A DNA stretch of 13,437 nucleotides from Candidatus Latescibacterota bacterium. GTDB lineage: Bacteria > JAAXHH01 > JACQVL01. The notes under the pieces were generated by a model. The model was not told the DNA's origin and searched no databases. It worked only from the letters and a program-made list of their open reading frames with translations. Shown here piece by piece: positions 267 to 12,565 of this stretch (within the stretch, counting starts at the first letter, position 1; the number at the start of each line of letters is the position of its first letter). The position numbers and the translations under genes are program-made. The stretch is taken from assembly GCA_016209865.1 (NCBI GenBank), contig JACQVL010000337.1:1-13437 (forward strand), given 5' to 3'.

Positions 267-282
267 TGGCACACCCCTTGCT
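267..282 (+). promoter_or_regulatory. Sigma-54 (-24/-12) promoter
   Basis: TGGCAC (267-272), five bases, then TTGCT (278-282) matches the consensus TGGCACG-N4-TTGCW except for one base. The invariant GG (268-269) and GC (280-281) are separated by exactly 10 bases. Transcription would start near 293, leaving a leader of about 62 bases before the chosen receiver-gene start at 355. The promoter faces the long gene string ending at 11528. It therefore predicts that the operon depends on an RpoN-associated activator responding to an environmental or envelope signal. The activator is not in the window. Confidence 0.8.
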
Positions 283-341
283 TTCCAGCTTAGCCGAACA
301 GAATCGGTGATCACAACTCAACAACAGGCCGTTCAGATATC

Positions 342-347
342 GAAAGG
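342..347 (+). promoter_or_regulatory. Ribosome binding site deciding the receiver-gene start
   Basis: GAAAGG lies 7 bases before the GTG at 355. The earlier in-frame GTG at 307 has no Shine-Dalgarno-like sequence and would follow the predicted transcription start by only about 14 bases. Starting at 355 also puts the first beta-strand of the receiver fold (MRIYLVSDE) at the N-terminus, as is usual for this family. Confidence 0.6.
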
Positions 348-354
348 CGCTCGC

Positions 355-783
355 GTGCGCATCTACCTGGTCAGCGATGAACCCATCGTCACGATCATCT
401 TAGAAGCGTTCCTCTCCGACCTCCGACATGCGGTCGTCTCAGCCCGGTCAGCCGAGGAACTGCTCGATCAACTCGCTCAACGCGCTCAGGCGGTCGATTG
501 CATCATCGCGGATTTCCATCGACCTGCGGAGGAGCGTCGCGTCCTGATCCGTCGATTGCACGAGCACGCGCCCGACACGCCGATCGTGATCGTCACGGGC
601 TACGACCCGACGACCGGCTATGACCCGACGCTGTCGCCGGATGAGGCGCTCGCGCATGGGGTCTACGCGTACCTGCACAAACCGCTTCATCTGGGCGAAT
701 TGCAACTGCTGCTCACACGACTCGCCGAGTATCGCGCGGATCGAAGACCATCGTCCATCAACAACCACACCACCGTGGAGTGA
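355..783 (+). CDS. Stand-alone response regulator receiver (REC) domain protein
   Basis: This 142-residue protein is a single CheY-like receiver domain with no output domain. It accepts a phosphoryl group from a histidine kinase and would signal by protein-protein contact in the cytoplasm. All key residues are visible: acidic pair D8-E9, phospho-acceptor D53 in IIADFHRP, switch T81 in IVIVTG, and K109 in YLHKPL. The C-terminus (from about residue 125) is a polar tail. The start is GTG at 355, with GAAAGG upstream; an alternative GTG at 307 would add 16 residues. It is the first gene after the sigma-54 promoter, and 22 bases separate it from the next gene, so it is probably cotranscribed. An in-frame tandem duplication at 598-633 gives GYDPTTGYDPTL, lengthening the beta4-alpha4 loop just after T81 by about six residues compared with typical receivers. 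No partner kinase is present. The family call is secure; its role in the operon is inferred. Confidence 0.85.
   Translation: MRIYLVSDEPIVTIILEAFLSDLRHAVVSARSAEELLDQLAQRAQAVDCIIADFHRPAEERRVLIRRLHEHAPDTPIVIVTGYDPTTGYDPTLSPDEALAHGVYAYLHKPLHLGELQLLLTRLAEYRADRRPSSINNHTTVE
598..633 (+). repeat. 18-bp in-frame tandem duplication in the receiver gene
   Basis: The codons at 598-615 (encoding GYDPTT) are followed directly by a near copy at 616-633 (encoding GYDPTL). The first five codons differ only by a silent TAC/TAT change. The duplication enlarges the loop between beta4 and alpha4, part of the face that changes shape on phosphorylation. Confidence 0.75.
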
Positions 784-805
784 GACCAGCCAAGGAGGCG
801 TTCCG

Positions 806-3493
806 ATGACAGCCGAGGTCCAGCTTCCCCGTCGCCTGCGATGGCAGCGCATCCTGATCCCGGCCGGAGTCAGCCTGGTGACGCTCATCGGCCTGGGGTT
901 TGCGGCTGATGTGAAGACCCTCCCCAGCGTCTTCCACGGCGTCGACCCGGTGCTGATCGGGCTGGCCGCCCTGAAAGCCCCGGTGCTCATCCTCCTGTGG
1001 AGCCTGCGGTGGCATCTGCTCCTGCGCGCCAGGCGGTTCCCCATCTCGCTGGCCCAGACGATGGCGGCGGTGCTCATCCGGAGCTTCTTCAACAACCTGA
1101 CGCCGGGCGCCGGGACGGGCGGCGAGCCGTTCGGGGCCTACTACCTGGCGAGAAAAACCTCGATGACGTTCAAAGAGGCGATCGCCAGCACCGCCGCCGA
1201 GCGCATGGCGCAGGGGGTGGTCATGGTGAGCATCATGCTCATCGCCATGATCGTCTGTGTGCCCCTGCTCCCGCTGTCCTCGACGCTCATCCAGGTGCTG
1301 CTGGCCGGACTGGCCGGGTTCATGGTGTTTGTCGGGTTGATGTTCTATCTCAGTCTGTTTCGGTTCCGGACCTGCCGGCTCATCATCGAAACCGTCATCC
1401 GGGCGCTGGTATGGGCCATCCCCTTCCTCCGGTCGAGATGGGACCTTAGCCAGATCAAACAACATCTCGATGGGTTCCATCAGGAATACCGGGCGTTCTT
1501 GAAGCGACCACAGGCCCTCCTGGGCATCGTCGTCGTGACCACTCTCAACTGGACGCTGGACTTCCTCCAGCCCTACCTGCTGTTCCAGGCGTTCCACGTG
1601 GACGTGCCGTTCTGGCTGATCGTCGTGAGCGCGACGACAATCAAGCTCATGGGGATTTTCTCCATCATCCCCGGCGGGGCCGGACTGGTCGAGGGCATGA
1701 ACTTCGGGCTGTATACCGGACTGTCGAGCGTCCCCCAGCAGGTCGTGGTGGCGGAGACGATCCTCTTCCGCGCGCTGGATACCTGGGTCCTCTGGCTCGT
1801 CAGCGGCATCGTGACGAGTCTGGCTGCGAATTCTCTCATCAGACAAGCTGATGCGCGAACCGAGCAGCGGCGGTGCGTGAATGCGACGGCACGGCCCGTG
1901 TCATCTTCACCCCCACACTCCATGAATCCGCCAGGGACAGAGAATGACAATCTGTCGTCTCTGTATGATGTCATCATCATCGGGAGCGGCTTCGGTGGGT
2001 CGATGACAGCCTACCCCCTCGTTTGCACTGGATGCAAGGTCCTGATGCTCGAGCGTGGGGACTGGGTCCCGCGTGGGACGCATAACTGGGCATCTGACGG
2101 TTCAGTCTACCGGACCTGCTATACGACCGAGACGCCCTATCAGGCTCGGGCCGGGGGGTACCGCGAGATGATCGGCTCGATCACCTGTGTTGGCGGACAG
2201 TCGGTGTTTGCGGGCGCCGTCTCGATCCGTTTTCGTGAAGCTGACTTCCCTGTCGATCCCGACATCGTTGGAAACTCGGGCGCGCGCTGGCCTTATTCTT
2301 ACGCTGAGTTGGAGTCCTACTACACGCATGCCGAGCAACTCCTCCACGTCGCGGGGGAAACAGGACGAGACCCGACCGAGCCGTTTCGCAGCGCTCCCTA
2401 TCCGCAGTCCCTGAACGGGCTCTCGCACACCGCACAGCGCATCGAACAGGCTGCAGGGCATCTCGGCCTCACCCCCTTCCGTCTACCGCTGGCGATCAAT
2501 TACTCGTCCAACAACGGACAGAAGCCGTGCATCGGGTGCACCACGTGCGACCTCTTTGCATGCGCCATCCAGGCTAAGAACGATCTCTCAACCAAGCTGA
2601 TCCCTGGCCTGATTCAGCAGGGCATGCATCTCAAGACCAACACCGTGGTCACCCGGCTGGTAACGGAAGGGAACCGTGTAGCCGCCGTGGTGTGCTATGA
2701 TAAGCAAACCGGCCAGACCCGGGGCTACCGGGCCAGACAGTTCATCCTCGCCGCCGGGGCGTTGGCCTCTCCGCATGTGTTGCTGACATCAGAATTGCAT
2801 CATCTCAACCCCGGCGGGCACACGGTCGGCCATTATCTAATGCGCCACTGCAACGCGATGGTGTTTGGGGTTTTCCCGGATCGACCCAATCAGAGTAAAC
2901 AGTTCCACAAACAGCTCGGCATCCATGATTTCTATTTCGGTCATCCCACGGTCACGAACCCGCCCGGCAAACTGGGGAGCATCCAGCAGGTGCAGACCCC
3001 CTCACGCGATCTCATGCACGCGGTGATGCCCAGCCCGTTCCGTCAGATCGCCTGCTGGGGCGTCGAGCACTTTGCCGGTTTGCTCATCATCGCCGAAGAC
3101 CAGCCCCAATACCGTAATCAGGTGATGATTGATCCCCGACACGCTGACCGTTTCGGTCTACCACAACTTTTGATCTCCCACCAGTACTCCAAGCGTGATA
3201 CGGCTGCCTGCCATGCACTGATTCAGCAGGCCAAGCAGGTTCTTCGGAAGGCCGGAGCGAGGCTCTTTTATGTGCACGACATCAAAACGTTCTCGCATGC
3301 CGTCGGCACGGTCCGGATGGGGGACGATCCAGACACGTCGGCGCTCGACTCGTATTGCCAGTTCCGCGGGGTCCCAAATCTGTACGTGGTCGATGGCAGT
3401 TTTATGCCGACCTCAGCCGGACTCAACCCCAGCCTGACGATCGCGGCCAACGCCCTGCGCGTCGGCGAGCATCTCGCCCGACGGAGGCTCTGA
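806..3493 (+). CDS. Fusion: LPG-synthase-type (UPF0104) membrane domain + GMC-family FAD oxidoreductase
   Basis: This 895-residue protein starts at ATG 806, with AAGGAGG at 792-798. Residues about 10-345 form a multi-pass membrane domain (roughly eight hydrophobic segments) of the lysylphosphatidylglycerol synthase TM / UPF0104 (YbhN-like) family. It carries the conserved stretches FFNNLTPGAGTGGEP (residues 94-108) and IIPGGAGLVEG (287-297). A polar linker (about 345-385) leads to a full GMC oxidoreductase. That part shows the FAD-binding GSGFGG (393-398), a cysteine cluster C575-C578-C581-C586, and the C-terminal pair H831 (HAVGTVRMG) and N874 (AGLNPS). GMC enzymes oxidise alcohols using FAD. 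UPF0104 relatives are membrane proteins, some linked to lipid flipping or aminoacyl-lipid transfer; no LPG catalytic domain is present. An in-frame ATG at 1922 (M373) could start the oxidoreductase alone but has no ribosome binding site, so one fused polypeptide is preferred. The stop overlaps the next ATG by one base. The substrate is unknown. Confidence 0.85.
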   Translation: MTAEVQLPRRLRWQRILIPAGVSLVTLIGLGFAADVKTLPSVFHGVDPVLIGLAALKAPVLILLWSLRWHLLLRARRFPISLAQTMAAVLIRSFFNNLTPGAGTGGEPFGAYYLARKTSMTFKEAIASTAAERMAQGVVMVSIMLIAMIVCVPLLPLSSTLIQVLLAGLAGFMVFVGLMFYLSLFRFRTCRLIIETVIRALVWAIPFLRSRWDLSQIKQHLDGFHQEYRAFLKRPQALLGIVVVTTLNWTLDFLQPYLLFQAFHVDVPFWLIVVSATTIKLMGIFSIIPGGAGLVEGMNFGLYTGLSSVPQQVVVAETILFRALDTWVLWLVSGIVTSLAANSLIRQADARTEQRRCVNATARPVSSSPPHSMNPPGTENDNLSSLYDVIIIGSGFGGSMTAYPLVCTGCKVLMLERGDWVPRGTHNWASDGSVYRTCYTTETPYQARAGGYREMIGSITCVGGQSVFAGAVSIRFREADFPVDPDIVGNSGARWPYSYAELESYYTHAEQLLHVAGETGRDPTEPFRSAPYPQSLNGLSHTAQRIEQAAGHLGLTPFRLPLAINYSSNNGQKPCIGCTTCDLFACAIQAKNDLSTKLIPGLIQQGMHLKTNTVVTRLVTEGNRVAAVVCYDKQTGQTRGYRARQFILAAGALASPHVLLTSELHHLNPGGHTVGHYLMRHCNAMVFGVFPDRPNQSKQFHKQLGIHDFYFGHPTVTNPPGKLGSIQQVQTPSRDLMHAVMPSPFRQIACWGVEHFAGLLIIAEDQPQYRNQVMIDPRHADRFGLPQLLISHQYSKRDTAACHALIQQAKQVLRKAGARLFYVHDIKTFSHAVGTVRMGDDPDTSALDSYCQFRGVPNLYVVDGSFMPTSAGLNPSLTIAANALRVGEHLARRRL

Positions 3494-4542
3494 TGCGCCC
3501 TCTTCTCGCCCTGCCCTTCTGGCTCCTGGCCGCCGATGCCATGGGCCAGCCACTGGCTCAGCCAGTCGAGCCACGACTGGATCGTGAGGCCATCCTCCAG
3601 CGGGGGATTTCCTGCCTGCATCGCGGGGTGTTCGACAGCGTCCTGATCGCGAGCGCGGCCTTGCACGCACGCGATCCCGATGACCCGGTCGGCCCCTTCC
3701 TCGCCGCCGATGCCTACAACACGATGACGCGGGACTACCGGGTGCGGCGGTTCGAGGACCAGTTCGACAGCCTGATCACCCAGACGATCACCACCGCCCG
3801 GAAAGCCCTGAAACGGCGTCCCACCGCAGAGAACTATTTCCTCTTAGGCTCTGCGGAAGGGTATCGATGCTTTTACCTGTTCCGCCGGGGAAAATGGCTC
3901 AAAGCCATCAACGCGGCGATGACCTGCCTCGACAACCTCCGGATCGCGCTGGAATTAAACCCGAAGTTGGTCGACCCCCTGCTCGGTCTTGCCATGTACG
4001 ACTACGGGAAGAGCAAGATCCCCGGCCTGGGACGGCTTGTCAGGAAGCAGAACGTGATCGCGAAACTCGAGCGTGTCCAGCGTGAGGGACGATACGTGTC
4101 CATCCCTGCGCTCTATGCCATGCAGATCGTCCATTTCGAGACAGGGAATTATGTCAAGGCGATGGCGTGCAACGATCAGCTCTACCGGCGATTCCCGTCC
4201 AACCCGGTGTGTCTGTATAACCGGGCGCTCCTGCTGGAGAAGCTGAACCGTCAGGCTGATGCGGTAGTCGTCTGGAAGCAGCTTATCACGCGCGTCGAGA
4301 CGTTCGTCCAGCCGAGCAACGGCTACCTGGCCGAGTGTCACTCCCACCTGTCCGAACTCTACCGGTCGTTGGGAGAGCCGGACAACGCGGGTAAAGCCCT
4401 CGCGTCAGCCAGGATGTGCGCCGGCCGGTATCAGGCTCATGAGGAAATCGATGGTTCCTATACCACGTTTGAAGAGACAGCACGGGCGATCGCACGAGCG
4501 ACCCAACAGGAGAAAGCCTGGGCACAACGAGCGTTGCGGTAA
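3493..4542 (+). CDS. Exported TPR-like repeat protein
   Basis: This 349-residue protein starts at ATG 3493 in a TGATG overlap with the previous stop, with GGAGG just upstream, indicating translational coupling. The N-terminus MRPLLALPFWLLAADAMGQP has the hydrophobic core and small residues of a signal peptide, so a periplasmic location is likely. The rest is helical with tetratricopeptide-like repeats. Examples are around residues 35-60 (RGISCLHRGVFDSVLIASAAL), 114-155 (NYFLLGSAEGYR to ALELNP), 206-235, 241-266 (LYNRALLLEKLNRQADAV) and 284-306 (HLSELYRSLGEPDNAGKALAS). TPR proteins are scaffolds, and in polysaccharide and lipid gene clusters they often help organise export complexes. No enzymatic motif is visible. 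The exact role is unknown and inferred only from context. Confidence 0.7.
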   Translation: MRPLLALPFWLLAADAMGQPLAQPVEPRLDREAILQRGISCLHRGVFDSVLIASAALHARDPDDPVGPFLAADAYNTMTRDYRVRRFEDQFDSLITQTITTARKALKRRPTAENYFLLGSAEGYRCFYLFRRGKWLKAINAAMTCLDNLRIALELNPKLVDPLLGLAMYDYGKSKIPGLGRLVRKQNVIAKLERVQREGRYVSIPALYAMQIVHFETGNYVKAMACNDQLYRRFPSNPVCLYNRALLLEKLNRQADAVVVWKQLITRVETFVQPSNGYLAECHSHLSELYRSLGEPDNAGKALASARMCAGRYQAHEEIDGSYTTFEETARAIARATQQEKAWAQRALR

Positions 4543-4566
4543 TTCTTGACGAAAGGACACATCACG

Positions 4567-6000
4567 ATGGTTGAAACCGCCCTTATTATCGCTGCTGGCA
4601 AGGGAACGCGCCTCAAGTCGGTGAGCGGCGACCTCCCCAAGCCCCTCCTCCGGGTCGCGGGCGTCCCGCTCATCAAGCGCGTCATCCTCACCGCCCACCG
4701 CGCCGGGATCGCCCGGTTTGTGGTCGTCACGGGCTACGCGGCGGATCAGTTTCACGCGACGCTCGACGGCGATCCGCAGGTAGCCGGACTGATCGAGTGG
4801 GTCCACAACGCCCAATGGGAAGCTCCAAACGGACTGTCTGTCCTGGCCGCGCGAGACCACCTGCCCGGCTCGTTCCTCCTCTCGATGGCCGACCATCTGT
4901 TCGACATGCAGAACCTGCGCCTGCTGCAGTATGCTCCACGAGAGAACGATGAGTGCGTGCTCTGCATCGACCGGAAGGTCGAGACGGTCTATGACCTGGA
5001 CGACGCCACGAAGGTCCAGGTCAACGGCTCGCATCTTCTCGACATCGGGAAGGACCTGGCGTCGTACAACGCGATCGACACCGGTCTGTTCCTCTGCTCG
5101 CCCGCCCTGTTCGAGGCGCTCGATCAGACCTGCGGTCAGGGACACGCTGCCCTGAGCGATGGAGTCCGCGTGCTGGCCCGCCAGGGACGGATGCGGGTGT
5201 GTGACATCGGGGACGGTTTCTGGCAGGATATCGATACGCCGGCGATGCTCGACCACGCCGAGCGTCTACTCCTCCAGGCCGTCCGCAAACCCACAGACGG
5301 CGTCATCGCCCGGCACCTCAATCGACCGATCTCCACCCGGGTCAGCCGCTGGATGGTCCGGACGTCGATCTCCCCGAATCAGATCACGATGGGCACGTTC
5401 CTGATCGGATTACTCGCAGCCCCGTTCGTGTCCGCCGGCACGTACTGGTCTGTGTTCTGGGCGGCGCTGTGTCTCCAGGTCTCGTCGATCCTCGACGGGT
5501 GTGACGGCGAGGTGGCCAAGCTCACCTTCCGTGAGTCGAAGTACGGCGCATGGCTCGACACCGTCACCGACAACCTCACCCATCTCGTCTTCTTCATCGG
5601 CGTGATCTTAGGGTACAGCCGCCAGGCAAACGATCCCCGCATCCTGCTCCTCGGCGGCGGCTCGATGGCGATCATCCTCCTGGCGCTGGTTATGATGTAC
5701 TACTACCTGCTGAAGACCGGCGGGAGCGGCAGTCTGCTCCGGTACAACACCGCGTTCGAGCGGCATGCGGTCCGGCAGAAGCGGGGGATGATCACCCGAT
5801 GTTTGAACGGCCTCCGGTTTATGATCAAGCGGGACTTCTTCTCGATGGTTTTTCTGAGCTGTGCGGTGCTCGGCCGTCTCGACTGGATGTTCTGGATCAT
5901 CGCGCTCGGCGGCCTCACGATGGCGGTCGGGGTGTTCGCGTCGATCGGGCATCTGTTGCATCAGGCGCGGGCGGCGCAGCAGGGGAAGGCGTCAGCATGA
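4567..6000 (+). CDS. Bifunctional nucleotidyltransferase / CDP-alcohol phosphatidyltransferase (IPCT-DIPPS-like)
   Basis: This 477-residue protein starts at ATG 4567, with GAAAGGA at 4551-4557. The N-terminal half (residues 1 to about 235) is a sugar-nucleotidyltransferase fold: LIIAAGKGTRL (6-16), PKPL (24-27), NGLSVLAA (88-95), metal-site D109 in SMADHLFD, and D223 in DIDTP. The C-terminal half (about 250-470) is a membrane CDP-alcohol phosphatidyltransferase. It carries D310-x2-D313-G-x2-A317-K318-x8-G327-x3-D331-x3-D335, plus SPNQIT near its start and several hydrophobic segments. This domain order is that of the bifunctional CTP:inositol-1-phosphate cytidylyltransferase / di-myo-inositol-phosphate-phosphate synthase. 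It would make CDP-inositol (or a CDP-polyol) and transfer the phospho-alcohol to an acceptor alcohol. The usual AR of the second motif is AK here. No inositol-1-phosphate synthase gene is in the window, so the true alcohol is open. ATGA overlap couples it to the flippase gene. Confidence 0.85.
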   Translation: MVETALIIAAGKGTRLKSVSGDLPKPLLRVAGVPLIKRVILTAHRAGIARFVVVTGYAADQFHATLDGDPQVAGLIEWVHNAQWEAPNGLSVLAARDHLPGSFLLSMADHLFDMQNLRLLQYAPRENDECVLCIDRKVETVYDLDDATKVQVNGSHLLDIGKDLASYNAIDTGLFLCSPALFEALDQTCGQGHAALSDGVRVLARQGRMRVCDIGDGFWQDIDTPAMLDHAERLLLQAVRKPTDGVIARHLNRPISTRVSRWMVRTSISPNQITMGTFLIGLLAAPFVSAGTYWSVFWAALCLQVSSILDGCDGEVAKLTFRESKYGAWLDTVTDNLTHLVFFIGVILGYSRQANDPRILLLGGGSMAIILLALVMMYYYLLKTGGSGSLLRYNTAFERHAVRQKRGMITRCLNGLRFMIKRDFFSMVFLSCAVLGRLDWMFWIIALGGLTMAVGVFASIGHLLHQARAAQQGKASA

Positions 6001-7595
6001 CCCTCTTACTGAAACGAGAGATGACGCGGGATGTGGCTCACCACGATGCCAGGGTGATCGCGAAGGGCGCGGGCGTGAACGTACTGGGCAACCTGGCGAA
6101 ACTGGTCAGACCGATGTCGTCCATCCTGATGACCCGCCTGTTCGGAGTAGAGGTGTTCGGTCTGTACACGCTGGGCTGGTCGGTCATCGACCTGCTCAGT
6201 AAAGTGGGACTGTTCGGCCTGGATAAAGGGGTGGTCAAGTTTGTCGTGCGATACCGGAGCGACGGGAACGATGACGCCGTCTACCGAACGCTGGGACAAT
6301 CCCTCCTGATCGGTCTCATCGTGAGCATGGGGATGGCCACCCTCCTCTCTGTGATCGCTCCATTGCTCTCCAGCCACGTGTTCTCTAAACCAGAGTTGAC
6401 GAGCATGCTTCGTGTGCTCGCGTGCTCCATTCCCTTCTTCACCTTCTCCCATGTACTCCTGGCCGCGACGAAAGCCCTCAAAATCATGCGGTTCGACGCG
6501 TACGTCAGGAGCATAGCTGAACCCGTCGTGATGCTGGCGGCCGTGTGCCTCTGCTTCGTCGTTGGCTGGCGGGTCAACGGGATCGCCATCGCGCATCTCA
6601 CCGCTGCGATCGGGGGAGCCGCATGCGCCTGGTACTGCTTCAGACGGGTGTTCTCGTCGAGCGCGTGTGTCACCGGGATACGTGAGATGAAGCTGTGGAC
6701 GGAAGTGACACAGTTTTCATTGCCGGTCATGTGTTACGACGTGCTCTACATCCTGATGATGCGATTGGACGCGCTGATGCTCGGCCATTTTCTCCCGGCG
6801 GTTCAGGTCGGCATCTACGGGGTCGCCATCGAGGTCGCCCTCCTGACCAAGAAAGTCCGGCAGTGGTTCGAGCCGATCTTCACGCCGATCATCGCTGAAT
6901 TTCACTACCGGCAGGAGACCGAACGCTTAGAGGCGACCTTCATCCTCGTCACACGATGGATCATGACGGTGAACATCGCCTGCTTCTTTGGGATCGTGCT
7001 GATCGGCCGGGACGTGCTCACGGTGTTCGGGCCGGTGTTCGCTGCCGGTGCCCTCAGCCTGACGCTGCTCAGCCTGAGCCAGGTGATCTACGGGAGTATG
7101 GGGTCCGGGGACACGGTCCTCCTGATGGCAGGACATCCGTACTTGAACTTGCTGAACACGGGGCTTGTCCTCGTCCTCAATGGCCTTCTGGGATTCCTGC
7201 TCATCCCCCGGTACGGGATCGTCGGGGCGGCCGTCGGGACGCTCCTCTCGTTTACGGCCATGACGATACTCCGTCTGATCGAGGTCTCGACGCTGCTTCA
7301 CATCTCTCCCTTCCGGCGGCAGCTCGTCAAACCGATCATGGCCGGATCGTTCGCGTTCATGACTGCGCTCGCCGTACGGTCAGTCTTCCTGGGAAGCGGC
7401 CTGTTGAGCCTTCTTGCGTGTCCCACGCTGTTCATCACGCTCTATGGGGTGACGCTGGTCGTGCTCCGGTTGCCGGACGAAGACCAACGACTCCTGCGTC
7501 TGGGATGGAGCTGGCTGTCTTCCCGGATTCAGGGTCGTCATCACGAAGACGCGGCGGTGTCAGACAGCCGTGAGATGAGGAGGCCGCCATGTTGA
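5997..7595 (+). CDS. Wzx-like polysaccharide/lipid-linked oligosaccharide flippase
   Basis: This 532-residue polytopic membrane protein starts at ATG 5997 in an ATGA overlap with the upstream stop, with AGGGGAAGG at about 5981-5989. It has a dozen or more hydrophobic segments and typical features of the polysaccharide transporter (PST/Wzx, MOP superfamily) family. These include an amphipathic start followed by GAGVNVLGNLAKLVRPMSSI, the RLFGVEVFGLYTLGWS stretch (residues 47-62), GLDKGVVKFV, and the two-lobe pattern with LMMRLDALMLGHF in mid-protein and LIPRYGIVGAAVGTLLS near residues 401-417. Wzx proteins flip undecaprenyl-linked glycans from the cytoplasmic to the periplasmic face. The charged C-terminal tail is somewhat longer than usual. 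It lies between the CDP-polyol enzyme and the glycosyltransferases, which supports a lipid-linked glycoconjugate substrate. The coding end overlaps the next start by seven bases. Confidence 0.85.
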   Translation: MTLLLKREMTRDVAHHDARVIAKGAGVNVLGNLAKLVRPMSSILMTRLFGVEVFGLYTLGWSVIDLLSKVGLFGLDKGVVKFVVRYRSDGNDDAVYRTLGQSLLIGLIVSMGMATLLSVIAPLLSSHVFSKPELTSMLRVLACSIPFFTFSHVLLAATKALKIMRFDAYVRSIAEPVVMLAAVCLCFVVGWRVNGIAIAHLTAAIGGAACAWYCFRRVFSSSACVTGIREMKLWTEVTQFSLPVMCYDVLYILMMRLDALMLGHFLPAVQVGIYGVAIEVALLTKKVRQWFEPIFTPIIAEFHYRQETERLEATFILVTRWIMTVNIACFFGIVLIGRDVLTVFGPVFAAGALSLTLLSLSQVIYGSMGSGDTVLLMAGHPYLNLLNTGLVLVLNGLLGFLLIPRYGIVGAAVGTLLSFTAMTILRLIEVSTLLHISPFRRQLVKPIMAGSFAFMTALAVRSVFLGSGLLSLLACPTLFITLYGVTLVVLRLPDEDQRLLRLGWSWLSSRIQGRHHEDAAVSDSREMRRPPC

Positions 7596-10075
7596 CGACG
7601 AAAGAACATCGTTCTCTCGATACGGTGCTGTCCCCCCCGCGCCAGGCACCCATCAAAGTGCTTTTCCTGACAGGCTGCGTGCGTGGCGGAGGGGCAAGCT
7701 GGAGTCTCTTCTATCTGCTCAAGTATCTCGACCGCTCGCGGGTTGAGCCCATCGTCGTGCTTCCTACAGCCGGTCTGCTGGCGCGGCGGCTCGAGACGAT
7801 CCAAGTCCGGTATCGCTTCTGTCCTGACTTGCCGGAGCGACTCGACATGCTCCGGTTTGCAGGAGGGGGATGGCTCCGGACACTCCTCTCCATGCTGCTC
7901 AACGTTGTGGGGGGTCTCCGGACTGTCGTCGCATTGATCCGCTTCATCCGCGCCGAACACGTCGATGTGATCTATTGCAATCACATGCTCGTCAAGCCGA
8001 TTGGCGCGCTGGCCGGACAGTGGACCGGCACTCCGGTGATCCTCCACTGTCGGACCGTTTACAGGTCTTTTCTCCGTCGGCGCCTCCTGGCCCACATCGC
8101 CCGGTTGACGGCCGTCAAGCAGGTGATCTGCATCTCAAAAGCTACAGAACAGGCTTATCATTTTTCTGGAAAGACGGTGATCATCCCGAACGGCGTCGAT
8201 CTGAGCGAGTATCAGCCAGAGAAGGTGACGGGAACGCTTCGGACGGAGTTGGGGCTTGATGAAGAACCCCTCATCGTGGGGTATGTCGGCCGGATCATCC
8301 GCATGAAGGGTCTTGATGTCTTGCTCGACGCCGCCCGAACGGTCCTCCACGCGAACCCGCGGGTTGTCATCTGCATCATCGGGGAGAATCTTCCCAGCAC
8401 CACCGACGATCTTCAGGCCCTGTACGCGCAACAAGCCGTTGAGTATGGGATCGCGGACCGGGTGCGCTTTCTCGGGTTCCGTGAAGATGTGCGGCCCTGC
8501 TTGCGCGATCTCGACCTGCTGGTCGTCCCGTCCAAAGAGCCGGAAGCGTTCGGCCGCGTCACGATCGAGGCGATGGCGATGGGAGTCCCAGTGATTGCGA
8601 CCGCTCATGGCGGCTCCTGCGAGATCATCGATGATCGTGTGGACGGGTTTCTCGTCCCACCCAACGACGCCCGAGCGTTGGCCCGGACGATCCTGGCCGC
8701 CCTGGCCTCTCCGGACACGCGGCGAACGATGGGTGAACGGGCTCGCCGCAAGGTCGGCCGATGTTTCGACGCGGCGGACGTGGCACGACAGATCGAAGAG
8801 CGGCTCTGCGCCATCTCTCGCAAACCTCCATCAGGCCGCATCGTTTATATTCTGAAACATTTTCCCGCAATCTCGGAGACGTTTATCCTGCGAGAAATCA
8901 CGGCGCTGCGCCGAAGAGGACTGCCCGTCACCGTCGTGGCACTCTGCCGGGCCCATCGGGAAGGGCTCTCATCGGAAGAAGAAGCCTGTCTGCGAGAGAC
9001 ACGCTTCGTGCCTCCCCTCTTCCTGCCTTCCGTCCTCCTGACGAACATGCTGACATTTCTTGCGTCGCCTCGATCCTATCTGGATGCCTTCGTTCGCGTG
9101 ATGGGGCTTCCTCACCGCCGTCCTTACTTCTATCTGCGCGCGTGGTATCATTTCCTTGCGGTCGGGTACATCGCCCGTGCGCTCCGGGATGGTCAACCCG
9201 TCGTGCATCTCCATGCGCACTTTGCCTCGACCTCGACCGAGATCGCGATGGGTGTGGCGACCCTCCTGGGTGTTCCGTTCAGTTTTACCGCACACGCGAA
9301 GGATATCTACGTCGATGCGAACGCCCTGCGCGAGAAGATACAGGCTGCCCGGTTTGTCGTGACGTGTAGTGATTACAACGCCCGGTATCTTCGGGCGCTG
9401 TGTCCTGAACTCCATCCTGAGCATGTGACGGTCGTCCGCTGCGGCATACCTATCGACACGGTGGTCAGGAGAAAGCCTCACGTATCCTCTCCGCCGATGA
9501 TCCTGTCAGTCGGACGGTTGGTCGAGAAGAAGGCACATCGCTATCTGATCGAGGCGTGTGGAATGATGAAGAACGAGGGACTCGCGTTCGAGTGTGTCAT
9601 CATCGGGGATGGGCCGTTGCGAGGGAGATTGTCAGAGATGATTCTCCGGCAGCGTCTCCAGGGCTGCGTCACGCTGCTGGGGAGTCTCCCCTACCGGCAG
9701 GTCGAGGAATTCTATCGGCGAGCCGCTGTCGTTGTCCTGCCCAGCCTTATCACTGCCGAGGGAGACCGCGAAGGAATGCCCAGCGTGCTGACCGAGGCCA
9801 TGATGTTCGGCGTGCCCGTGATTTCGAGTCCGACGGCTGGCATTCCGGAGCTGGTCGTGGACGGTGAGACCGGGCTGCTCGTCCCCCCCGCCGATGCTCA
9901 GGCGCTCGCCAGGGCTATCGTGAGAGTCCTCCACGATGCCCCGCTCAGGAGCAGGCTGGTAGCCCGAGGACGAGCAAAAGTTGAAGCCGACTATGACCTT
10001 GAGCAGAACGTCGCACGATTGATCGCGCGTTTTGATGAGCGATCAATCGGCAATCACAATGGGTCATCTTGGTAG
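7589..10075 (+). CDS. Tandem fusion of two GT-B (GT4-like) glycosyltransferases
   Basis: This 828-residue protein starts at ATG 7589, with GAGGAGG at 7577-7583. Residues about 20-410 are one GT-B glycosyltransferase. It shows VRGGGASWSL (31-40), the C-lobe start VGYVGRIIRMKGLDVLLDA, and the nucleotide-sugar E-x7-E motif at E319/E327. Residues about 417-815 are a second complete enzyme beginning IVYILKHFPAISETFI. It has LHAHFAS (541-547), SFTAHAKDIY, LSVGRLVEKKA, and its own E-x7-E at E728/E736. The opening of the second half resembles the WcaL/AmsK-like colanic-acid group of GT4. Both halves keep their donor-binding glutamates, so both are probably active, adding two sugars in sequence to a lipid-linked acceptor on the cytoplasmic face. 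There is no internal ribosome binding site or stop at the junction (near 8835). Donor and acceptor sugars cannot be read from the sequence. Confidence 0.9.
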   Translation: MLTTKEHRSLDTVLSPPRQAPIKVLFLTGCVRGGGASWSLFYLLKYLDRSRVEPIVVLPTAGLLARRLETIQVRYRFCPDLPERLDMLRFAGGGWLRTLLSMLLNVVGGLRTVVALIRFIRAEHVDVIYCNHMLVKPIGALAGQWTGTPVILHCRTVYRSFLRRRLLAHIARLTAVKQVICISKATEQAYHFSGKTVIIPNGVDLSEYQPEKVTGTLRTELGLDEEPLIVGYVGRIIRMKGLDVLLDAARTVLHANPRVVICIIGENLPSTTDDLQALYAQQAVEYGIADRVRFLGFREDVRPCLRDLDLLVVPSKEPEAFGRVTIEAMAMGVPVIATAHGGSCEIIDDRVDGFLVPPNDARALARTILAALASPDTRRTMGERARRKVGRCFDAADVARQIEERLCAISRKPPSGRIVYILKHFPAISETFILREITALRRRGLPVTVVALCRAHREGLSSEEEACLRETRFVPPLFLPSVLLTNMLTFLASPRSYLDAFVRVMGLPHRRPYFYLRAWYHFLAVGYIARALRDGQPVVHLHAHFASTSTEIAMGVATLLGVPFSFTAHAKDIYVDANALREKIQAARFVVTCSDYNARYLRALCPELHPEHVTVVRCGIPIDTVVRRKPHVSSPPMILSVGRLVEKKAHRYLIEACGMMKNEGLAFECVIIGDGPLRGRLSEMILRQRLQGCVTLLGSLPYRQVEEFYRRAAVVVLPSLITAEGDREGMPSVLTEAMMFGVPVISSPTAGIPELVVDGETGLLVPPADAQALARAIVRVLHDAPLRSRLVARGRAKVEADYDLEQNVARLIARFDERSIGNHNGSSW

Positions 10076-10118
10076 GGGTGTTGTGCGCAGCGCTCCTCTT
10101 GTGAAGAACGGAAACAGC

Positions 10119-10841
10119 ATGGACAGGCAACAGACCAGACAGAACCGGTGTGTGTGGGTAGGAAAGAGCCTGCTGGGACTGATAGCCCTGTGCTGGGTGT
10201 GCGTCGAGAGTACGGCGTCCCCTTCCATAGATGGGCAAGAGATCATCATCGATGATTTTAGTGGGAACCATGTCGGGGCTTTTCCTGCGGGCTGGGCGAC
10301 GTGGCGGAAGGACATCCGGCTCGCGCGCCGGGTGTACTCAGTTCAACAGGAGGATGGGAATGCGTATCTCCATGCGCGGGATGATGGGGCGTCGGTCATC
10401 CTCCGCAAAGAGCTGCGGTCCTGGAACCCGAAACAGTACCCGATCCTCACCTGGCGCTGGCGTGCGCGGGTGTTGCCGAAAGGAGGGGACGAACGACGCA
10501 GGGAAACGAATGACAGCGCGAACGCGGTGTATGTCGTGCTCTCGGAGAACTGGTTCCACATCCCGAGGACATTGAAGTACGTGTGGAGCACGACCGTGCC
10601 GGTGGGAACGGTCTACCGCCGGCCCGGCATCGGGTGGCCGTACGTGATCGTCCTGCAGAGCGGGCCGCAGCGTCTTGGGAGCTGGGTTTCCGAGCGCGTC
10701 AACGTGTACGCGGACTACCGGCGCCTCTTCGGAGAAGAGCCGCCTGCACGGGCGGTCGGGATCGGACTGATGACGGACCAGAACTCCACCCGTGCGGGGT
10801 CTGAAGGGGATTACGACGACTTTATCCTCGAACGTCGCTGA
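10119..10841 (+). CDS. Exported DUF3047 family protein
   Basis: This 240-residue protein has an N-terminal signal peptide (positively charged start, then VGKSLLGLIALCWVCVESTAS), so it is probably periplasmic or outer-membrane associated. The mature part matches the DUF3047 pattern. It opens with IDDFSG (44-49) and contains YPILTWRWRARVLP (107-120), a run of polar residues before DSANAVYVVLS, LKYVWS (152-157), ERVNVYADYRRLFGEEP (192-208) and a GLMTDQNST/DYDDFIL ending. DUF3047 proteins have no established function and are predicted beta-rich. ATG 10119 is chosen because it places the signal peptide correctly, with GGAAA as a weak ribosome site. In-frame ATGs at 10032 and 10059 would overlap or nearly reach the glycosyltransferase end and add an unlikely basic leader. 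The next gene follows 15 bases after the stop. Confidence 0.75.
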   Translation: MDRQQTRQNRCVWVGKSLLGLIALCWVCVESTASPSIDGQEIIIDDFSGNHVGAFPAGWATWRKDIRLARRVYSVQQEDGNAYLHARDDGASVILRKELRSWNPKQYPILTWRWRARVLPKGGDERRRETNDSANAVYVVLSENWFHIPRTLKYVWSTTVPVGTVYRRPGIGWPYVIVLQSGPQRLGSWVSERVNVYADYRRLFGEEPPARAVGIGLMTDQNSTRAGSEGDYDDFILERR

Positions 10842-10856
10842 AAGGAGAGTAGCCGT

Positions 10857-11528
10857 ATGGAAGCTGTAGCCTTTAAGGATGCGACTCGCGCGCAGTTCAG
10901 TCTCTTAGCGCCGACAGAGAAACGAGCGTTGCACTGGCTGGCCCGCCGGATGCCCGCCTGGGTGGGGCCGGATCATCTGACCCTTCTCGGTTTTGCCGCG
11001 ATGCTGTTGGCGGGGCTTTGCTATTACCTCAGCCAGTGGAGCCCGTCCTGGCTCCATCTCGTCAACCTGACCTTAGCCGTCAACTGGTTCGGGGACAGCC
11101 TGGACGGGACGTTAGCCCGGTACCGCAACAAGCAGCGGCCGCGGTACGGGTTTTACGTCGATCATATCATCGATGCGTTCAGCACCCTGAGCATCTTCGG
11201 CGGGCTGGCGCTCTCCGGGTACATGAGCGAACGCATCGCGCTCGGCCTGCTCATCGTGTACTTCATGGCGTCCATCAACGTGTACTTAGCGACGTACACG
11301 ATGGGCACGTTCCGGCTGTCATTCTGGAAGCTCAGCCCGACGGAAGGCCGGCTCATCCTGGCGCTCGGCAACCTGGTCGTCTGCTACCACCCGCACATCC
11401 TGCTCCAGGGACATCCCTACTTGCTGTACGACATCGGGGGCGTCGCGTTGCTCGCCGTTCTCGTCCTCATTCTCATCGGCTCGGTCGTTCGCAATACGCT
11501 CATACTCTACCGGGCGGAGCGGGTGTGA
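10857..11528 (+). CDS. CDP-alcohol phosphatidyltransferase family membrane enzyme
   Basis: This 223-residue integral membrane protein starts at ATG 10857, with AAAGGAG at 10841-10847. The full family signature is present: D80-x2-D83-G84-x2-A87-R88-x9-G98-x3-D102-x3-D106, in NWFGDSLDGTLARY and GFYVDHIIDA. It has about six hydrophobic segments, the usual topology and length. Such enzymes displace CMP from a CDP-alcohol (CDP-diacylglycerol, CDP-choline, CDP-inositol and others) to form a phosphodiester. It is distinct from the fused copy at 4567-6000, whose motif has AK rather than AR. It is the last gene before a promoter-bearing gap, so it probably ends the operon. One reading is that the fused enzyme makes the CDP-polyol and this one uses a different acceptor or donor to finish a phospholipid. 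The substrate cannot be read from the sequence. Confidence 0.88.
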   Translation: MEAVAFKDATRAQFSLLAPTEKRALHWLARRMPAWVGPDHLTLLGFAAMLLAGLCYYLSQWSPSWLHLVNLTLAVNWFGDSLDGTLARYRNKQRPRYGFYVDHIIDAFSTLSIFGGLALSGYMSERIALGLLIVYFMASINVYLATYTMGTFRLSFWKLSPTEGRLILALGNLVVCYHPHILLQGHPYLLYDIGGVALLAVLVLILIGSVVRNTLILYRAERV

Positions 11529-11592: not shown

Positions 11593-11621
11593 TTGACAAA
11601 CAACAGGTTGCCTGATATACT
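11593..11621 (+). promoter_or_regulatory. Sigma-70 promoter of the outer-membrane protein gene
   Basis: TTGACA (11593-11598), a 17-base spacer, then TATACT (11616-11621) is a near-perfect housekeeping promoter. Transcription would start near 11628, giving a leader of about 95 bases before ATG 11723. Such a strong promoter normally needs a repressor or produces an abundant protein. The -10 region overlaps the dyad described at 11612-11630. Confidence 0.8.
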
Positions 11622-11695: not shown

Positions 11696-11722
11696 AGGCA
11701 GGTCTCTGTGTGGAGAGTCGCC

Positions 11723-12565
11723 ATGAAACTCGCCAGGGCGGTCGCGTTCCTGGTCTGCTGGTTGAGTCCTCTCTCCCTGTCACAGGCTCAGATGAGCGCG
11801 TGTGACGGACCGGATGACGGGCCAACCCCTGCCGGTGTCCAACTCGAACCTTCCTCCGAACGACAGCCAGCCGATACGATGACCGAGACTGTCTCATCAC
11901 AAGAGTCGCCCGTCGAGGGTGGTGGGAACATCCTGTTTGCGTTCCCGCGCAAGGCGTTCAAGAAGATTGCCGGCGTGGCGATGCCGGGCCTGTCCGGCTA
12001 CATCGGGGTCCGTCCGCCGCGCAGCCCGACGATGGTGGGAGTGGAAGTCGGGTATATGGGCTATGGACTCGAAGACCGCGAGGAGCCGTTCGGCCCCACG
12101 ATTCCCGATGTAAGAGTGGATGTGTCGACTCAAAACAGCATCGTCTCGATGCATCTCCTCTCACGGCTGCAACCCCAGCGCGGCCGGGTTCGTCCGTACC
12201 TCGAAGGCTTGGTCGGGTTCAACTACTTCTTCACCTACACGTCGGTCTCGAGACAGAATTCCGCTTTAGACGAGGATGACGCCATCGCCGGGACGATTAA
12301 CTATGACGACGTTGCGTTCAGCTATGGATGGGGCGGCGGTCTGTTGCTCCAGGTCTACGACGGGACGAAGAAAAAAGGGTTCACCCCCGCGAAAGATGTG
12401 CGGAGGGCGCTGATCGACTTTCGGGTACGATCGCTTTACGGCACGGAGGCGAATTACCTCAAAGAGGGCGGGATTCGCCGCCACGTCGGCCATGTCACCT
12501 ACGACGTGAATCGCTCACGGACGGACATGGTCGTCGGGTCTATCGGAGTGGTGTTTGAGTTTTGA
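11723..12565 (+). CDS. Predicted outer-membrane beta-barrel protein
   Basis: This 280-residue protein starts at ATG 11723, with GGAGAG at 11712-11717; an in-frame GTG at 11708 is less likely. The signal peptide is MKLARAVAFLVCWLSPLSLS followed by QAQ. A low-complexity, Pro/Ser/Glu-rich stretch (about 27-65) leads to a beta-rich body with alternating hydrophobic strands. Visible strands include GLSGYIGVRPP (89-99), TMVGVEVGYMGYGL (103-116), VRPYLEGLVGFNYFFTY (156-172), VAFSYGWGGGLLLQVY (197-212) and the final VVGSIGVVFEF. The last residue is Phe with alternating hydrophobic residues before it, the usual BAM recognition signal. An OmpA-like or small porin-like barrel is likely; the ligand is unknown. 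It has its own strong promoter, so it is probably regulated separately from the operon upstream. Confidence 0.75.
   Translation: MKLARAVAFLVCWLSPLSLSQAQMSACDGPDDGPTPAGVQLEPSSERQPADTMTETVSSQESPVEGGGNILFAFPRKAFKKIAGVAMPGLSGYIGVRPPRSPTMVGVEVGYMGYGLEDREEPFGPTIPDVRVDVSTQNSIVSMHLLSRLQPQRGRVRPYLEGLVGFNYFFTYTSVSRQNSALDEDDAIAGTINYDDVAFSYGWGGGLLLQVYDGTKKKGFTPAKDVRRALIDFRVRSLYGTEANYLKEGGIRRHVGHVTYDVNRSRTDMVVGSIGVVFEF

Follow-up and report, generated by a model that had tools for sequence, protein, structure and literature searches.

A putative sigma-54-controlled operon for an inositol-phosphate glycolipid in an uncultured Gram-negative-type bacterium

Results

Layout of the operon and its boundaries

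The window, i.e. the whole stretch of DNA analysed, comprises all of contig C290 (13.4 kb, cut at both ends) from the 83%-complete, 3.75-Mb draft genome of an uncultured Gram-negative-type bacterium. Open reading frame analysis places eight genes on the + strand between 307 and 11528, with successive junctions of +22, -1, +24, -4, -7, +43 and +15 bases. This confirms the original observation of eight same-strand genes, with overlaps or gaps of at most 43 bases between them, behind a -24/-12 site that is exact at 267-282. Comparisons within the phylum used 16 genomes (the window genome and 15 relatives), the phylum-level search set being the same as the order-level set. The features are as follows.

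267..282, + strand: sigma-54 (-24/-12) promoter site, TGGCAC-N5-TTGCT (exact match; genome-wide enrichment 15 vs 2)
307..783, + strand: receiver-only response regulator (PF00072, 1.9e-11)
806..1921, + strand: LPG_synthase_TM / flippase-like membrane domain, in frame with the GMC domain (PF03706, 5e-42; TIGR00374)
1922..3493, + strand: GMC oxidoreductase domain of the glucose/fructose-dehydrogenase type, with Cys cluster (PF05199, PF00732)
3493..4542, + strand: TPR protein with signal-peptide-like N-terminus, predicted secreted (domain search; G011 orthologue)
4567..6000, + strand: fusion of an IPCT/DIPP-synthase-like cytidylyltransferase (MobA-like NTP transferase) and a CDP-alcohol phosphotransferase (4mnd, 1.8e-51; NF041135, 256.8 bits)
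5997..7595, + strand: MOP/Wzx-type flippase (PF01943, 2e-19)
7589..10075, + strand: tandem GT4-GT4 glycosyltransferase (PF00534 twice)
10119..10841, + strand: DUF3047 protein, predicted secreted beta-sandwich of the carbohydrate-binding-module type (PF11249, 5.6e-38)
10857..11528, + strand: second CDP-alcohol phosphotransferase, CDP-OH2 (PF01066; 8gyw, 1.2e-9; full motif)

The response regulator has an alternative start, GTG 355, with a better Shine-Dalgarno sequence than that of 307. A check for signals that would split the gene string found no sigma-70-like site on the + strand within 307-11528, and the terminator-like + strand hits in this range are short, weak hairpins inside coding sequence. 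The first good sigma-70-like site (11593-11621, 11/12 matches) lies 3' of the last gene, in a 179-base gap that parts the operon from the next gene, and is predicted to start the next transcription unit. The gene at 11708-12565 encodes a beta-barrel-like outer-membrane protein without family match and has its own good sigma-70-like promoter; an SDR-family dehydrogenase is encoded on the - strand at the contig end (12675-13427).

A sigma-54 promoter site

At 267-282, TGGCACACCCCTTGCT matches the -24/-12 element exactly, and the window has no other such site at up to one mismatch. At this stringency 0.33 sites are expected, and 60 of 200 shuffles contain at least one, so the window by itself is no proof of the site. 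Across the genome, the exact pattern has 15 matches versus 2 for a reversed control pattern, and at least one NtrC-type sigma-54 activator is encoded, its gene lying on a fragment that carries an exact -24/-12 site. A scan of relatives' loci gave no exact match; sigma-54 control is therefore not established as conserved, and may be specific to the window copy. In one relative, G001, a sigma-54 activator with AAA lid and Fis HTH is nevertheless encoded upstream of a CDP-OH2/flippase-like pair. A second receiver-only response regulator of the window genome (L119:1501-2002, on G000:C220) is 30% identical to that of the window, and an exact -24/-12 site at 3071-3086 precedes its gene by about 60 bases. 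Sigma-54 may therefore control more than one receiver-only gene of this genome.

The fused enzyme and its likely substrate

The best solved match of the fused enzyme is the Archaeoglobus IPCT/DIPP synthase (4mnd, 1.8e-51), with which it shares the two-domain fusion and the catalytic residues. The three residues named for the IPCT active site have their counterparts in R15, K25 and D109, and the CDP-alcohol motif (D310-x2-D-G-x2-A-K-x8-G-x3-D-x3-D335) is complete, with K replacing R. In contrast to the Archaeoglobus enzyme, that of the window is accompanied by a flippase, GT4 domains and a second CDP-OH transferase, and its score of 256.8 bits against NF041135, the NCBIfam DIPP equivalog, lies below the cut-off of 580; it is consequently not filed as an equivalog.

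Homologues 39-44% identical to the fused enzyme directly adjoin inositol-phosphate synthase (MIPS) in three distant genomes. The Pfam NAD_binding_5 model misses the bacterial synthase, which was detected by protein query in 15 of the 16 genomes of the order, the exception being G001. Matches in the window genome on contigs C218 (57%) and C231 (46%) provide a source of inositol 1-phosphate, and inositol-phosphate synthase of this genome adjoins a PIP-synthase-like gene. The second, divergent copy (G000:C231:8026-9078) is located between FAD-dependent oxidase-like and mannitol-dehydrogenase-like genes. The polyol of the original prediction is, judged from these sequence relationships, probably inositol.

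In an alternative that we consider unlikely, these enzymes would act on a different phospho-alcohol (glycerate, glycerol or one of the choline/ethanolamine type), and the resulting glycolipid or ceramide would bear a phospho-head group other than inositol; CpgD of Caulobacter offers a precedent. IPCT-fold enzymes have indeed shifted substrate, CpgD making CDP-glycerate with the same three active-site residues; moreover, MIPS lies outside the operon (in this phylum on another contig or far away) and went undetected in G001. Against this stand the MIPS-adjoining homologues and a likeness to IPCT/DIPPS far stronger than that to LicC (phosphocholine, 4.7e-6) or PntC (phosphonate, 2.2e-4). A phosphonate version, i.e. 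a phosphonolipid, was rejected as improbable because PEP mutase was not found in the draft window genome nor in most relatives.

Other enzymes of the operon

By sequence, the nearest solved relatives of CDP-OH2, which has the full CDP-alcohol motif, are the Kennedy-pathway enzymes CEPT1/CHPT1 (8gyw, 1.2e-9), which use diacylglycerol as acceptor. The GT4 domains are EpsE/WcaL-like; PimA/PimB' are among their structural matches, ranked below other GT4s. The predicted DUF3047 structure (pLDDT 87) is a beta-sandwich that matches folds of the carbohydrate-binding-module type with Z scores of 11-12. A glucuronyl C5-epimerase domain and flagellar microtubule proteins also match this fold, and the matches were taken to describe the predicted fold only, giving no function. 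DUF3047 neighbours are inconsistent across 13 loci outside the order, and no account of its function was found in the literature searched.

A conserved locus and a remodelled second copy

The fused enzyme is 56-60% identical in the 15 relatives, and every one of them carries the same flippase gene beside it, separated from it by no more than one methyltransferase-sized gap. DUF3047 is found 6-8 kb away on the same contig in 11/15; in others the contig is cut. The relatives' locus begins with BlaI, an M56 peptidase/beta-barrel gene, the fused enzyme, a methyltransferase (missing in G011 and in the window) and the flippase; it continues with a second CDP-OH transferase whose N-terminus is degenerate and, in some, radical-SAM and membrane proteins; and it ends with TolC, DUF3047, MlaC, a type I phosphodiesterase and radical SAM. 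The presence of the methyltransferase, the degenerate CDP-OH transferase, TolC, MlaC and the phosphodiesterase suggests transport towards the outer membrane. In L026 and relatives (e.g. L032:11324-13210), the M56 (BlaR1-type) peptidase is fused to a C-terminal beta-barrel-like region; in the ancestral loci read, it is found upstream of the gene for the fused enzyme, and in several of them a BlaI-type gene comes before it.

The window genome contains a second fused enzyme on contig C44 (73% over 271 aa), which stands behind BlaI and M56/beta-barrel genes as in the relatives, while contig C345 carries a GT4 gene (63% to the second half of the tandem GT4), TolC and DUF3047 (71%). Both contigs look like pieces of the ancestral locus. 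From these second copies in ancestral context we infer that the window operon is a duplicated, remodelled paralogue of the phylum-wide locus. In a tree of the fused enzyme the genome's own two copies are sisters, with support (51/35) weakened by interfering long branches; the tree weakly supports duplication and does not contradict it, and the claim therefore rests on identity and gene context.

The flippase-like/GMC, TPR and CDP-OH2 genes are, by the same comparison, additions to the window copy; GMC, TPR and CDP-OH2 genes are absent from most relatives, and single relatives carry parts of the added block. In G011 a flippase-like gene is followed by a phosphodiesterase and then a TPR orthologue (54-55% identical, found only there), and in G001 a CDP-OH2 orthologue (59%) precedes the flippase-like gene. 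The neighbourhood is thus conserved as sub-blocks (the DIPP-like enzyme with flippase, DUF3047 at a distance, the G011 and G001 pairs), whereas the full eight-gene set was found in no other examined genome of the phylum.

These neighbourhoods also bear on two further readings of the operon. In one, it would belong to a Wzx-type exopolysaccharide or capsule locus with phospho-inositol in the repeat units, the polymerase and other components lying beyond the contig ends or elsewhere. The Wzx-type flippase, the EpsE/WcaL-like GT4 domains, the carbohydrate-binding-module-like secreted protein and the cut ends of the contig all fit. Nevertheless, domain searches of the window genes, on a contig cut at both ends, identified no Wzy polymerase, initiating sugar-phosphate transferase or exosortase; these were likewise not noticed in the relatives' loci read, which hold MlaC, a phosphodiesterase and CDP-OH transferases instead. 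The lack of Wzy, from which an ordinary capsule locus was originally dismissed, does not suffice for that on a contig with two cut ends; we consider a capsule locus quite unlikely. Very improbable is a soluble di-inositol-phosphate-type solute made by the fused enzyme beside an unrelated envelope-glycan operon: the characterised DIPP synthase does make a soluble product, but the fused enzyme adjoins a lipid-glycan flippase phylum-wide and the same pair is retained in the duplicated copy.

The flippase-like/GMC fusion

The flippase-like and GMC domains form one open frame (806-3493, 895 aa), as originally described. The fusion is seen in the window only; stand-alone flippase-like orthologues, 48-50% identical, occur only in G011 and G001, so the fusion could result from one assembly indel in the region of about 1840 to 1925. 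The GMC domain occupies the position of the G011 phosphodiesterase and has no counterpart above 29% identity elsewhere in the phylum. Its closest relatives lie outside (66% in G331, 55% in G347), which suggests acquisition by transfer, and adjoin a Gfo/Idh/MocA oxidoreductase and a membrane protein. A recurrent set outside the phylum (L125, L126, L128) comprises a GMC relative, a Gfo/Idh/MocA oxidoreductase and a membrane protein of approximately 270 aa without Pfam match, an oxidase-plus-reductase pairing that we take to recall the DprE1/DprE2 epimerase pair.

The domain matches FAD glucose dehydrogenase (8e-30). Of its Cys cluster (C575, C578, C581 and C586), C575, C581 and C586 align with C212, C218 and C222, presumably the 3Fe-4S cluster ligands of FAD glucose/fructose dehydrogenase. 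The GMC fold and the three aligned Cys of the Fe-S region are thus common to the catalytic subunits of these dehydrogenases; unlike them, the window protein is fused to a membrane flippase-like domain, and a partner cytochrome was not seen in the window. An oxidised product, as had been proposed, is not supported, the GMC domain being confined within the phylum to this operon at that level of identity.

Discussion

The gene order, the domains with their catalytic motifs, the promoter site, the conserved core and the paralogous copy are established. On this basis we give about even weight to the reading that sigma-54 here controls an operon making an inositol-phosphate glycolipid for the cell envelope. 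A synthase gene outside the operon would supply inositol 1-phosphate, which the N-terminal domain of the 4567-6000 product would probably convert with CTP to CDP-inositol. From this, the fused transferase domain, CDP-OH2 or both would transfer phospho-inositol to an acceptor that is a lipid or lipid-linked, a step put forward with only moderate confidence because neither the characterised DIPP synthase nor AF2299 processes lipids, which also makes a soluble product possible. With similar confidence, the GT4 pair is proposed to add sugars. The GMC domain might conceivably oxidise a sugar or polyol at the cytoplasmic face. Adjacency argues strongly that the product would be turned outward by the MOP flippase, possibly assisted by the LPG_TM domain. 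In the periplasm, the secreted DUF3047 protein may handle it, as its predicted carbohydrate-binding fold would allow, and the secreted TPR protein could conceivably do so too. The proposal that the operon makes and exports an oxidised, glycosylated phospho-polyol lipid or polymer is supported in part: the DIPP-synthase-like enzyme has its full set of catalytic motifs and a flippase as neighbour in each relative, glycosyltransferases are present, and the cytidylyltransferase is linked to inositol phosphate. Oxidation is not supported.

To call the product undescribed was too strong, because CDP-inositol-dependent synthesis of inositol lipids has already been reported or proposed. As cited in PMC9246714, Jorge et al. 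2015 reported CDP-inositol as head-group donor for inositol phospholipids, and a putative NTP + CDP-OH + HAD cluster for inositol lipids has been proposed in Bacteroides vulgatus/Prevotella; an LPG-synthase-type gene lies close to this Bacteroidetes cluster (PMC9246714; Heaver 2022). The window operon shares the cytidylyltransferase, the CDP-OH transferase and the LPG-synthase-type gene, but lacks MIPS and HAD and has glycosyltransferases, a flippase, GMC and DUF3047. In the Caulobacter ceramide diphosphoglycerate pathway, CpgD likewise is an IPCT-fold cytidylyltransferase feeding an anionic envelope lipid; unlike the window enzyme, it stands alone and activates phosphoglycerate (PMC12275187). 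What the window appears to add to the known pathway is dedicated glycosylation, a flippase, the GMC domain and a phylum-wide conserved core.

GT4 enzymes acting on an inositol phospholipid would give a product analogous to the mycobacterial phosphatidylinositol mannosides, made by the GT4 enzymes PimA/PimB, although PimA/PimB' are not the best matches of the window GT4s. A bolder and doubtful extension would make the product a phylum-specific, Gram-negative-type counterpart of these mannosides: a CDP-inositol-made, glycosylated and oxidised inositol phospholipid that is flipped and then transported to the outer membrane. The membrane-anchored flippase-like/GMC fusion would oxidise its lipid-linked group, and two paralogous loci, one under sigma-54, would produce two versions.

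Among bacteria, inositol lipids count as rare. If the inositol-phosphate glycolipid reading is true, a whole uncultured phylum would have a dedicated inositol-glycolipid locus that uses CDP-inositol chemistry and not the CDP-diacylglycerol route. DIPP-synthase-like enzymes would gain a lipid role, the secreted DUF3047 family would be placed in an envelope-glycolipid setting, and the operon would offer a defined gene set for heterologous expression.
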